A DNA stretch of 64,000 nt from NCBI RefSeq assembly GCF_018389385.1, contig NZ_CP062698.1, forward strand, positions 2,111,501 through 2,175,500. The letters are read 5' to 3'. The position numbers and the translations under genes were made by a program. Within the stretch, counting starts at the first letter, position 1; every line of letters begins with the position of its first letter. The notes under the pieces are model-generated. The model had not been told where the DNA came from, ran no database searches, and was given only the letters and a program-made list of their open reading frames with translations. Positions 50,222 through 54,589 of the stretch are shown here, piece by piece. This DNA is from Anthocerotibacter panamensis C109. Its GTDB lineage: Bacteria > Cyanobacteriota > Cyanobacteriia > Gloeobacterales > Anthocerotibacteraceae.

Positions 50222-50841
50222 ACCCCTTGACGCTGTTCTTTGAGGTAGGCGAAAACGCTCTTATCGCCAATATCCGGGTCTAGGGGCTGGAATGCTTTGC
50301 GCCCAGCCAGGATTAACAGGAGTACCGCCACAACGACCAGCCCCACCGTCCCGACGTTGGAATTGAGCATGCCCAAAAGGTGAGACAGCAGGAGCAACGG
50401 CAGTAACGGGACCAGCAGCGTACTTGTGGCCCAGCGGAAGCAGAACGTCTCCTTGATCAACAGTCCAGTCAGAGCCGCAAAGACAAAGCCCACGCCCCAG
50501 ATCGTCGCCGGATTGTGGTACACCGCTAGTGCCAAGGGTTCTTCGGCCCATAGCGCTAGGGCTACGCTCACCACCACCCCAATGCCCCAAAAGCCTTGGA
50601 GCACCCGGTGTAGTACACGCATGTAGATATGCACTACCCAGAGCGCAACCCCCAGCCCCAGACAAAAGACTGCGTAGATCCACGTCAAAGCGGGGACAGG
50701 CAGTCCCACCAAAAGCCAAGCCACCCCCAGCGCAGCACTTCCTGCCATCACCGCCCAAGCAGAGCGATAAATCCGAACCTCGTTGCGGTCCTCTGGAGTA
50801 ATAGTGTAAGGGCCAAACTGGCCCTGATAGGTCGTGTCCAT
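50218..50841 (-). CDS. DUF2301 integral membrane protein
   Basis: A 207-aa membrane protein of the cyanobacterial DUF2301 family, with about six or seven hydrophobic helices. Family segments: YTITPEDRNEVRIYRSAWAV near the start, KETFCFRWATSTLLVPLLPL, and a soluble C-terminal tail FQPLDPDIGDKSVFAYLKE. Its role is unknown. It begins inside the stop codon of the upstream protease gene (one-base overlap), so the two are translationally coupled, which may indicate membrane-linked protein quality control. Confidence 0.82.
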   Translation of the reverse strand: MDTTYQGQFGPYTITPEDRNEVRIYRSAWAVMAGSAALGVAWLLVGLPVPALTWIYAVFCLGLGVALWVVHIYMRVLHRVLQGFWGIGVVVSVALALWAEEPLALAVYHNPATIWGVGFVFAALTGLLIKETFCFRWATSTLLVPLLPLLLLSHLLGMLNSNVGTVGLVVVAVLLLILAGRKAFQPLDPDIGDKSVFAYLKEQRQGV

Positions 50842-51818
50842 CAGAAATCCACCTCAATATCAGCAAGGCGCTGATTGCGAGCTACTGTGAAGACCGCTGA
50901 GATCGGGCGCGTCTCTAGAAACGCCCGCAAATCTTCGGGTCCTGAGATTCTGCGTCCATTGATCCCCAGTAGACGGTCTCCAGGTTGCAGCCCCAACTCA
51001 TCGGCCAGTGAGCCCGGTTTGACAGCCTGGATAACCAGAGTACTTCCATCCACAGTCACCCCCAACTGTGGCGCAGCGGGTTGGGTCTGCCGGGGGGGTA
51101 ATCCTCTGTCCCCGTTACTGCGGTCATTACTGCTACGGTCATTGCTGGCAAGCAGCTCCCCGTTGCGGTCAGCCCTGCGATTGCGGGCGATAAAGTCTCG
51201 GACCGCCAGAGCACTCGTGGCGAAACCAATACCGATGTTGCCCTGCCCCCCTGGGCTGAGGATTTCTTTGTTGACCCCGATAAGTTCCCCCTGAGAATTG
51301 AGTAGGGGACCGCCGGAATTGCCAGGGTTAAGAGCAGCGTCAGTCTGGAGGTCACCATCTCGGGCCACCCGGCTGAGGATACCTGTCGTCAGTGTCCCCG
51401 AGAGCCCAAAGGGACTGCCAATAGCATAGACGCGTTGCCCTACCTGGATACCGTCCGCGCCTGCTAGAGGAACAGTCGGGAGGCGGTCCCGAGTGGACAG
51501 GCGGACCAGCGCCAGATCGTTCTTGCGGTCAACTGCGATTACCTGTCCCCCGTAGCGCTTGCCCTGAGTGGTCTGGACGGTGACCTGACCATTGCGGGAG
51601 CCCCGGATGACATGTTCGTTGGTGAGTACCAGACCTTCGGAGCTGACGACACTCCCGGCTCCTGTCCCCTGACCGGAGAAGACCGTGACTACCGCAGGGC
51701 TGGCCGCTTTGTAGACATTGATACTAGCCTGCTCTTCTCTATCGAAGCGAGCAGGAGCACTATAGACCGGAGCACTGGCAAACATAAGCGCACACAGGAG
51801 CAAACGTTCAGGTCTCAT
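50841..51818 (-). CDS. Trypsin-like serine protease with PDZ domain (Deg family)
   Basis: A 325-aa S1C/HtrA-like protease. A Sec signal peptide (LLLCALMFASAPVYSA) leads it to the periplasm. The catalytic triad is His in GLVLTNEHVIRGS, Asp in RKNDLALVRLS, and Ser in LNPGNSGGPLLNSQGE. A low-complexity linker (RSSNDRSNGDRGLPPR) joins the single C-terminal PDZ domain, which contains GVTVDGSTLVIQAVKPGSLA and LGINGRRISGPEDL. Such proteins degrade or refold damaged envelope proteins. It is translationally coupled to the DUF2301 gene. Confidence 0.92.
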   Translation of the reverse strand: MRPERLLLCALMFASAPVYSAPARFDREEQASINVYKAASPAVVTVFSGQGTGAGSVVSSEGLVLTNEHVIRGSRNGQVTVQTTQGKRYGGQVIAVDRKNDLALVRLSTRDRLPTVPLAGADGIQVGQRVYAIGSPFGLSGTLTTGILSRVARDGDLQTDAALNPGNSGGPLLNSQGELIGVNKEILSPGGQGNIGIGFATSALAVRDFIARNRRADRNGELLASNDRSSNDRSNGDRGLPPRQTQPAAPQLGVTVDGSTLVIQAVKPGSLADELGLQPGDRLLGINGRRISGPEDLRAFLETRPISAVFTVARNQRLADIEVDF

Positions 51819-51836
51819 GGCAGCGCACTCAGGGGT

Positions 51837-52313
51837 ATGATTGGGTGGTGGGTACTTTTACTCGCAACAACGCAGGCAACAGGGAAAAGTTCCCTCTTCA
51901 TTGTAAAGTATCCAACCGTGGAAGAACGGCTCCTCAAGCTCGCTGAAGATGAATTGGCTGAGTACAGCACACGCCAGCGCAAATTCGAAAAAATGCGCCC
52001 TAAAGTCGTCGCCCTGCTCAGTGCTAACGAACGCACCACGCTTAAGCAAGAACTGCGCCAGCAGTTGAGCCAAGGTGGAATGATAGCGCAAGTGGTGGAA
52101 CGGCAACGGCAAACCGTCGCGCTTCCCTTTTGGGGCATTGCGGGACTCGGTCTGCTGGCATTTTTTCTGGGTTCTCGACCAGCTTTGGTCCTTGCGGCTG
52201 TGGCTGTAGCCGGAGCCTTCACCCTCCAGCGATGGGGCTGGAAACTCCAAGCCCGCCGTCTCCTCCTTGACTGTATCGAAGACCTGGAACAACGTCAGGC
52301 TCAAAGTCGCTGA
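51837..52313 (+). CDS. Unknown protein with two-helix membrane segment
   Basis: A 158-aa protein starting [13 protein letters not shown] (start uncertain). The first half is charged and helical ([20 protein letters not shown]); residues 97-122 form a hydrophobic hairpin ([20 protein letters not shown] then [14 protein letters not shown]), and an amphipathic tail [16 protein letters not shown] ends it. The start is tentative: AGGGG lies too close to the ATG, but the longer frame to 51612 runs into the divergent protease gene. It may share a promoter region with the protease. Its stop overlaps the convergent transglutaminase-like gene by 13 bases. Confidence 0.6.
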
Positions 52314-54589
52314 CCGCCCACGGGCCTCCGGTCGCGCAACCGCCGTGCCAGGAAACGATACTGTTTTTCTAGGTCGTGCACTGGGGCTAGCTCCCCACGA
52401 TAGCGCCATGTGAGGTAGCCCGCCACAATCCGGCTACAGGATTGCGTGACTTCCCCAGGTAGGCGCAGCTCGACCTCTGTGAGAAATTCCAAGGGCGTCT
52501 GATAGGGTAGCTTTACGAGACCCTGTTGGGCCAGACGGTCTAACATTTGCCGGTAAAACCGCTCCGCTGGAGGCAACTGACGGAGACTCCGCTCCCCCAG
52601 CCACCAAGAGCCCAGGGCAAACATGCCCCACCCACCCAAGACCAAAGCCACTGTAAGCACCAGCAGGATTGCGCCGCCTACCCAGCCCAGATCCGCCACC
52701 AGGGAACCTGCCCAAGCAAAGAGTGCCGCAATTATCCCCCCTATCCCGCTGACGAGATAGCCTAAAGCTACTTTGAGCGGTTCGGGGAGGAGCCGACCCA
52801 AAACCTGCCAGGACTGGTCCGCTACCTGAAACGTATCCGGCTGGTCCAAAGAAGGTGGCGTAAGTGGCCTTCCTGGTGTCGGGTCAAAGCTGAACCAGCC
52901 CATGTCCGCAAAATACACCTCCACCAGCGCGGTTGCGTCCGTATTCGAGACCTCATAGTAGCCCGTCCAGGGGTTAAAAGCCCCCGGCAGAAAGCCTGTC
53001 GCTAGGCGAGCAGGGATACCCAGACTGCGCAACATAACTACTTCAGTGGTGGCAAAGTGCTCAGGGGAGCCGCCCTTAGAGCCAAAGAGAAAGGCATCAG
53101 CCAAATCCCGGCGAGCGCTAAAAGGCGGGATAGTCTGTCTTAGGACGTAGGTCTGCTTGAGATATTGGGTGAGGGCAAGGGCTTTTTCGTAGTAGCCCGG
53201 AGCGTCGCGGGTAATTCGTTCTGCCAGCTTCCGCGTCCGGGAAGAGACCGTGGAGGGCAAAGGTAGATAGGCAGCACGGATCGCCTTGGGGTAGAGCGCC
53301 TTGGTCGTCCTGAGGCGAGCGCGGTCGCGCAGGGGGACATTGGAGACTACGGTATAGGTCAGGCCCTCCAGCAACTCGACAGGGGCGCGAATCGTGCTCT
53401 GGGGATCGAGGGCTACTTGCCGGGTTGGGAAGTACAGTTCCCCAGCCCAGGGTGCCGCCGGGACAAGGTTGGGCAGGTCTGAGACCATCGTGAAGGTCTG
53501 TACTATCGACTGGGTAGGCAGATGGGTATTGTTCGTAGGCAGGTAGATGACGCCGAAGGGCGGTTGGCGGTAGATGGTCACGGCGTTATCGCGCTTGATC
53601 CGCCAGCCCGTCCCGGTGTATTCGTCGAAGGCCATCACCCGCCAGAAAGAGGGGGCTTGTGCCCGCACCCGCATCACCACGATAGGCTCCAGGACACCTT
53701 GGACATCAAACCCGATAGCCTCGTTAAAACCAAAATAAGCGGTGGGTAGGGCGCGCCCCTTGCCCCCTTCCCCCTTGGCTGCCCCGCTCCCCCGGCTACC
53801 CAGTCCCTGACTGCCGCGAGCCAATTCCTGAGGGAACCCCCGGTTACGGATTTTGGTGCTGAAGTCAGCGGGCAGGGGAATCGTGGTACTGACCGGAAAA
53901 GCCCGCAGTTGATAGCCCGGAAAACGGGGTAGGAGCGCAAAAATAAGGGCTCCGAGCGCGAGGCTTGCCCCGACCAAGACTCCGATTCCACGCCAGGGCA
54001 CCATCTGTTGCGCCTGAGTAACCGGCGTGGGCAACCCCAAACGAGAACGGTAATCGAAGCGCAGCATGGGTACTGCCACCAATACAAAACCCACCAACCA
54101 GGGCGCAAAAGTCAAGGTCTGGCTCAGCGTAGCCGCCACCCCCAACAACACCAGCCCAATCGCCATGGAGTAGCCCAAATCCCGGCGGCGCGGCAGGTCA
54201 AAGCTATGGATCACCTGGAGGTGCACAAGCAGGAGTGCGAGGCCGATTCGTGTGTCATTGGGGGTGGAGAGGATATTCAAAAAGAAGACCCCCAGCGCTG
54301 CGAGCATGGCGATAGCCAGCAAAAACTTGATCAAGATATTACGCTCCCGCCTGCGCTGCCAACTCACCACCGCCCCGACTAGGCTCAACGGAACCGCCCA
54401 CAGGCTGGTCGGCAAAGCACTGAGATTGCTAAAGGCTCCCGCCGCCACATCGGTTGCCACAATGCCGATGCCGACGAGTACCTGCACCAGCGTGCGCAGG
54501 GGAATGGACTCCTCACTGGGGATGCTAGAAGGGGAAGGCAGCCAGCGCTGCCAGGATTTCAGAAGCGCCGAGGGCGTCACGGTCTGCAT
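52301..54589 (-). CDS. TgpA-like membrane protein with degenerate transglutaminase domain
   Basis: A 762-aa protein of the DUF3488/transglutaminase-like type: about seven N-terminal membrane helices (30-225), a periplasmic domain (about 230-590), further helices near 600-665 and a C-terminal cytosolic DUF4129-like segment ([18 protein letters not shown]). The periplasmic part has the transglutaminase fold, but the catalytic Cys site reads GSPEHF (P509 where Cys is expected) and the His site reads [11 protein letters not shown] (T553), while Asp in FSFDPT is kept. It is thus likely a non-catalytic protein, perhaps a scaffold or ligand sensor. Its 3' end overlaps the convergent gene. Confidence 0.88.

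Follow-up and report, generated by a model that had tools for sequence, protein, structure and literature searches.

The window analysed here is a stretch of 64,000 nucleotides of Anthocerotibacter panamensis C109 (contig NZ_CP062698.1). Its minus strand carries, at positions 52301 to 54589 (2163804-2166089 in the genome), an open reading frame for a polytopic membrane protein of 762 amino acids, here called psi-TgpA, whose parts were delimited by Pfam matches and a structure model. The gene, psi-tgpA, comes after genes for a methyltransferase, accB, efp and a sigma factor and before those for an HtrA-like protease and a DUF2301 protein. TgpA_N (PF11992), which comprises membrane helices, also seen in the model, and the first periplasmic part, matches at residues 49-421 (positions 53327 to 54445; E = 7.8e-19, 68.3 bits against a cut-off of 30). 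Transglut_core (PF01841) matches at residues 453-570 (52880 to 53233; E = 4e-20, 72.5 bits, cut-off 23) and DUF4129 (PF13559), near the C-terminus, at residues 679-736 (52382 to 52555; E = 1.1e-8, 35.4 bits, cut-off 24.8). The protein has all three domain features of the TgpA family: TgpA_N, a Transglut_core with its fold, and DUF4129.

The transglutaminase core, hereafter the dead domain, was aligned to TgpA of Pseudomonas aeruginosa (PDB 6g49), in which we take the Cys of FCAHYA, the His of DAHAW and the Asp of SVDPT to be the catalytic triad. Below these residues lie P509 (codon at 53063 to 53065), T553 (52931 to 52933) and D569 (52883 to 52885), the first two within the motifs S508-P509-E510-H511-F512 and D551-A552-T553-A554-L555. 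The original prediction had placed SPEHF, with P509 for Cys, and DATAL, with T553 for His, at 52931-53065, and both the residues and the coordinates proved exact. Its further statement that only the Asp is kept holds for the triad residue D569, but D551 of DATAL, which is also retained, is not a triad residue. Judged by this alignment, the window protein, with P509, T553 and D569, lacks the Cys-His-Asp combination of an active transglutaminase or papain-like enzyme. Such a conserved triad is stated for P. aeruginosa TgpA (PA2873) in the accessible text of a report that also describes its transglutaminase activity, its co-transcription with PA2875-PA2874 and its essentiality (PMC3507681). A second, intact copy, for which the original prediction proposed a check, was not found in the window's genome, where TgpA_N matches once; this genome encodes three other transglutaminase-core proteins, all with the Cys motif and two of the three with the matching His motif.

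In the structure model (mean pLDDT 79.8; ten-residue means of 82-97 over residues 451-570) seven long helices precede the dead domain and one or two follow it, and P509 begins a helix. The likeness to P. aeruginosa TgpA (PDB 6g49/6g4h) lies both in sequence (residues 438-579 of the window protein against 6g49, E = 1.2e-13) and in predicted fold, the periplasmic part matching 6g49 with Z = 25.2 and an rmsd of 3.1 across 264 residues; psi-TgpA differs in the replacement of the catalytic Cys and His and in the distance to a DUF58 gene. The next structure match outside TgpA was a putative cysteine protease (3isr, Z = 14.0), and most human transglutaminases, together with the inactive protein 4.2, scored about 8-11. 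The predicted fold is thus retained in the model despite the loss of the catalytic residues. For the periplasmic part no solved structure beyond transglutaminase or papain-like folds stood out in this search, which barely covers the membrane part. Going by the model, DUF4129 may lie on the cytoplasmic side of the membrane.

Erythrocyte protein 4.2 (EPB42) offers a comparison for how such a protein might work, as it too has an inactive transglutaminase fold at a membrane. Its structure (8csw) matches psi-TgpA with Z = 8.8 and rmsd 4.0 over 157 residues, a Z near 8 by itself indicating a shared core only. It differs in being eukaryotic and in belonging to the ankyrin complex, and it presumably has neither TgpA_N nor DUF4129; we assume that the two proteins lost catalysis independently. 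A study of papain-like enzymes treats active-site variants and inactive members including EPB42, and the word 'cyanobacteria' is absent from its main text (PMC10318531). The literature searched, with much of the subscription literature beyond reach, nowhere describes a cyanobacterial TgpA that has lost its catalytic residues.

DUF58 and MoxR genes are the usual neighbours of TgpA. No adjacent DUF58 gene was found by psi-tgpA in the window's genome, in which DUF58 matches lie at 2475690 and 487527, the nearest about 310 kb from psi-tgpA. The HtrA-like gene downstream on the same strand (50841 to 51818, minus strand) encodes a trypsin and PDZ protein of only 325 amino acids, which the Do/HtrA models match below their cut-offs. 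Convergent with psi-tgpA is a 233-codon open reading frame (51612 to 52313, plus strand), the stops overlapping by 13 bases; it has no Pfam or NCBIfam match, and the C-terminal half of its product resembles a small membrane protein by eye. Its true start probably lies further in, as its 5' part overlaps the HtrA-like gene.

Loss of the catalytic residues in Cyanobacteriia

The window protein was searched against 386 genomes of the phylum, with two candidates scored per genome, and matched in 148; a weak match in this search, in genome G105, was left out. Active sites were read in these matches, in relatives and in fetched stretches, which together gave 133 entries from Cyanobacteriia. Among the 132 of these that were readable at the site, 123 lack the Cys and nine are divergent intact TgpA. 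Outside the class, 20 entries from 18 genomes of the phylum were read, of which 19 have Cys-His-Asp and one was unreadable in one frame. The loci unreadable at the site were L170 and L064, two frames of the latter showing Cys and His. A second, independent scan, of a named genome collection and with two short patterns taken from outside the active site, yielded 562 relatives, and in none of the best 80 is the Cys present. The dead loci named there include Nostoc, Calothrix, Fischerella, Oscillatoria, Microcystis, Crocosphaera, Spirulina, Thermosynechococcus and one Gloeobacterales genome.

A tree of 218 distinct proteins was built with FastTree (LG) after the two catalytic columns had been excluded; ten identical or contained proteins were removed from an input of 228, and five proteins shorter than 550 amino acids (L064, L066, L170, L174 and L175) had been dropped beforehand. 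Sampling was within the phylum, and the root was placed between the dead and the intact groups. We found that the tree separates 27 Cys-bearing relatives, all with full Cys-His-Asp, from 191 Cys-less proteins with support of 1.0. The latter are the Cyanobacteriia orthologues: none has the Cys and 19 have the His. The loss in the window protein is thus not due to chance, and a lineage-wide pseudoenzyme, as originally proposed, is strongly supported; a majority of homologues with both Cys and His, named at the outset as the result that would speak against this, was looked for and not found.

At the Cys position the 191 proteins have Pro (166), Ala (14), Arg (3), Glu (3), Gly (2), Val (1), Ile (1) or Ser (1), and at the His position Tyr (136), Phe (27), His (19), Gln (5) or Thr (4), the Thr being confined to the four Gloeobacterales proteins of the tree. 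The suggestion that Pro and Thr might be fixed is therefore borne out in part: replacement of the Cys is universal among the 191, but Pro is a majority state, and Thr is the state of Gloeobacterales. The triad Asp at position 569 is more often kept (Asp in 168, Asn in 22 and a gap in one of the 191). A Trp at position 555 is present in 27 of 27 intact proteins and in none of the 191. Three proteins of one family (f37; L158, L168 and L169) have Glu for Cys and Gln for His (GGEESHF ... DTQS) and sit on a long branch within the dead clade, a further change of the dead site.

Parsimony on this tree requires one change for the Cys, one for Trp555 and 12 for the His, or 32 losses if the His was never regained. 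The Cys-His-Asp triad is general in the superfamily. With this and with the root placed between the two groups, a change can be read as a loss; and as the split is clean and fully supported with the catalytic columns removed, a single loss of the Cys suffices. Because the Cys and the Trp each changed once, against 12 changes for a His still kept by 19 of 191 proteins, the Cys, with the Trp, would have been lost first and the His afterwards and repeatedly. The four Gloeobacterales proteins form the first branch of the dead clade. On the tree here, the loss of the Cys is younger than the divergence of the phylum's other classes but older than the branching-off of Gloeobacterales. This is a clear and very old case of an enzyme becoming a non-enzyme, and one that can be placed on a species tree.

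Intact TgpA is also found in the class. TgpA_N matched in 305 of 388 Cyanobacteriia genomes, with at most five candidates scored per genome; the active site was read in the best 30 loci, the matches of the other 275 genomes falling outside that reading. These 30 loci, from four families, all have Cys and His, and 29 of the 30 genomes have a single TgpA_N match among the candidates scored. Going by these residues, some Cyanobacteriia have an intact TgpA instead of the dead one. The window protein (P0001) also matches in 12 of these 30 genomes, weakly (best E from 1.0e-27 to 2.2e-6). Mutual exclusion of dead and intact TgpA was considered and is not claimed, since the 30 loci come from no more than four families and both kinds occur together in two genomes (G015 and G016). 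In these two, the intact gene adjoins a DUF58 gene, which we take to be the canonical cluster arrangement; beside the intact copies of G019 and G408 DUF58 falls below the Pfam cut-off, and none was found in seven other neighbouring open reading frames of intact copies that were scanned.

Constraint on the dead domain and its possible role

We calculated dN/dS for 40 disjoint pairs of orthologues, taken from the most alike downwards among 343 pairs with 80-98.5% identity, with dS of 0.15-1.5. The dead domain has a median dN/dS of 0.052 (range 0.004-0.152), the lowest of the parts measured; the medians are 0.089 for the membrane part, 0.114 for the whole protein and 0.137 for DUF4129. Within the family, purifying selection on this domain is strong. 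The purifying selection for which the original prediction proposed a test is thereby confirmed in close orthologues. This does not extend to the branch of the window protein, whose comparison with the nearest relative (L006) is saturated at dS 2.7, with dN 0.27, and stands outside the 40 pairs. Mean pairwise identity within the dead clade is 0.694 for the dead domain, 0.695 for the membrane core (residues 67-160) and 0.519 for DUF4129.

Several residues near the old site are fixed or nearly so among the 191 proteins: Asn549 in 191 (codon at 52943 to 52945; Asn in three of 27 in the intact group, where the position is variable), Gly506 in 187, Asp551 in 186 (Asp in 17 of 27 intact proteins), Thr550 in 184, Asp510 in 184 and His511 in 180 (53057 to 53059; His in 16 of 27 intact relatives). 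At position 510 the window protein and its three Gloeobacterales relatives have Glu. A further set of clade-specific residues, H128, G139, Y140 and S141, surrounds the loop that joins the fourth long helix to the fifth, which the model would place in the cytoplasm, provided that the N-terminus is inside.

The gene is missing or broken in places. No TgpA-type match of either kind was present in five of nine Gloeobacterales genomes (G003-G006, which are four of four in genus g4, and G008), and three in-frame stops break one orthologue, L170 (G400:C1:902826-915015), which still has a patU-like gene upstream. With these five genomes and at least one broken orthologue, psi-tgpA is dispensable in some lineages.

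Loss of the nucleophile, strong constraint and new fixed residues together form the pattern expected of a pseudoenzyme with a binding job, and the tight guarding of the dead domain points to a non-enzymatic job at the cell envelope. The reading we favour, and consider fairly likely, is that a TgpA-family pseudoenzyme is present across Cyanobacteriia, whose dead cleft binds a periplasmic peptide and which has a scaffolding or sensing role in division or in the growth of the envelope. The transglutaminase domain would have lost its nucleophile, replaced by Pro in most descendants, and the neighbouring Trp in the ancestor of the class, with repeated later losses of the His, and selection would have kept the dead domain while Asn549, Gly506 and, outside Gloeobacterales, Asp510 became fixed. 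In the most economical model, the N-terminal membrane helices, seven in the structure model, would present the dead papain-like cleft to the periplasm; there it may bind, for example, a peptidoglycan stem peptide or a partner protein without cutting or cross-linking it. Binding might then be passed on across the membrane, to the conserved loop that follows the fourth helix and probably to the DUF4129 tail, and this would give psi-TgpA its scaffolding or sensing role. The structural or sensing role, perhaps linked to cell-wall turnover, that the original prediction had put forward may apply.

Two other explanations need to be weighed against this one. The dead domain could be mere fold filler, kept for stability, with the function residing in the TgpA_N membrane part. 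The high conservation of the membrane core and the clade-specific residues around the loop after its fourth helix are in keeping with this; filler should evolve faster, however, yet the dead domain has a lower median dN/dS than the membrane part, and clade-specific residues flank the old active-site motifs as well. We therefore regard the filler explanation as unlikely. Alternatively, the domain might still be an enzyme with another chemistry, Asp510, His511, Ser513/Thr514, Asn549, Asp551 and Asp569 forming an active site without Cys or a metal site. The near-fixation of Asn549, Asp510, His511, Thr550 and Asp551, some of them clade-specific, would be expected of such a site, as would the strongest constraint among the parts measured. 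His511 and Asp551 are, however, common in intact TgpA too, where they could serve the structure; at position 513 the window protein and others, 37 of 191 in all, have Ala, Pro or Val; and the window protein has Glu at 510, while Asn replaces Asp569 in 22 of 191. A new chemistry is quite improbable in our view. Nothing was found in favour of recent local decay or of a sequencing error in the genome of the window; both are refuted by the recurrence of the loss in related Gloeobacterales and throughout the class, by the open frame and by the purifying selection in the family.

We conclude that psi-TgpA probably acts in the periplasm, as a module for binding or scaffolding with a link to the control of envelope or division. 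It would also provide a natural test of the roles of TgpA apart from catalysis.

The hetZ-patU neighbourhood

The hetZ and patU genes serve heterocyst patterning and division control. In the sample used for synteny (93 loci of the genome set with long flanks, 88 of them with at least 2 kb upstream), with hetZ and patU recognised by BLAST to two reference pairs, we found the order hetZ, patU-like gene, psi-tgpA on one strand in 42 of 88 genomes, from 27 of 54 genera and nine of 26 families. Most of the best-scoring loci (L021-L048), having flanks of 1.5 kb, fall outside this count. The block is also upstream in 56 of 73 named loci, a set rich in Nostoc relatives. The first gene is HetZ by NCBIfam NF037963 (cut-off 550), against which the two proteins scanned scored 646 and 634 bits. 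In many filamentous lineages psi-tgpA forms one synteny block with hetZ-patU; as the median gap between patU and psi-tgpA is 254 or 283 bp, a shared transcript cannot be assumed.

The window itself differs: hetZ and patU are not beside psi-tgpA, and no match to HetZ was found in any of the nine Gloeobacterales genomes searched, that of the window included. The dead protein is therefore older than the hetZ-patU block or independent of it. The gene also occurs without adjacent hetZ in, for example, Microcystis and Crocosphaera loci (L251, L219 and L220), and among 73 loci without hetZ no conserved neighbour of note was found. The two largest neighbour clusters (26 and 15 loci) were set aside, the example examined from each being an opposite-strand open reading frame of psi-tgpA itself, and the next cluster has seven. 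In a family relative (L181), open reading frames of the lengths of efp and accB lie directly before psi-tgpA, the second within 20 bases; these two were found in two loci each.

According to the accessible parts of the reports concerned, PatU3 is a binding partner of HetZ and restrains the synthesis of septal peptidoglycan (PMC12288457, PMC7377430), the step at which it restricts division, and interacts with ZipS (PMC12288457); hetR, hetZ and patU3 are among ten genes that the filamentous species in one comparison share (PMC2821919). The synteny suggests that psi-TgpA may act towards division or septum control, and makes it a concrete membrane candidate beside hetZ-patU. A bolder version, which we hold to be doubtful, is that psi-TgpA is the membrane arm of an ancient cyanobacterial division-control module, its cleft reading a septal peptidoglycan peptide and signalling to PatU/HetZ or, where a species lacks these, to an older partner. 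If true, a lost enzyme would have become the receptor through which the building of the septum influences the choice of cell fate along a filament.

A 'transglutaminase' gene of the hetL/patU cluster of Mastigocladus laminosus UU774 is described, in the available text of its report, as having a stop codon in UU774 and PCC 9339 and as functional in NIES-3754 and PCC 7120 (PMC9284123). From its position on the patU side, this gene is very probably psi-tgpA. Two Fischerella orthologues (L197 and L211) have neither Cys nor His, residues from which we judge the NIES-3754 and PCC 7120 versions to be probably catalytically dead too. At least one paper, as far as its accessible text goes, treats the gene as a functional transglutaminase (PMC9284123), which the residues contradict in every dead-clade orthologue read. 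The stops in L170 are comparable with those of UU774 and PCC 9339.

One further protein of 160-170 amino acids, cyanobacterial and with no Pfam or NCBIfam match (for example L194:2571-3080, minus strand), is encoded immediately ahead of hetZ, with the reverse orientation, in 100 of 175 loci.
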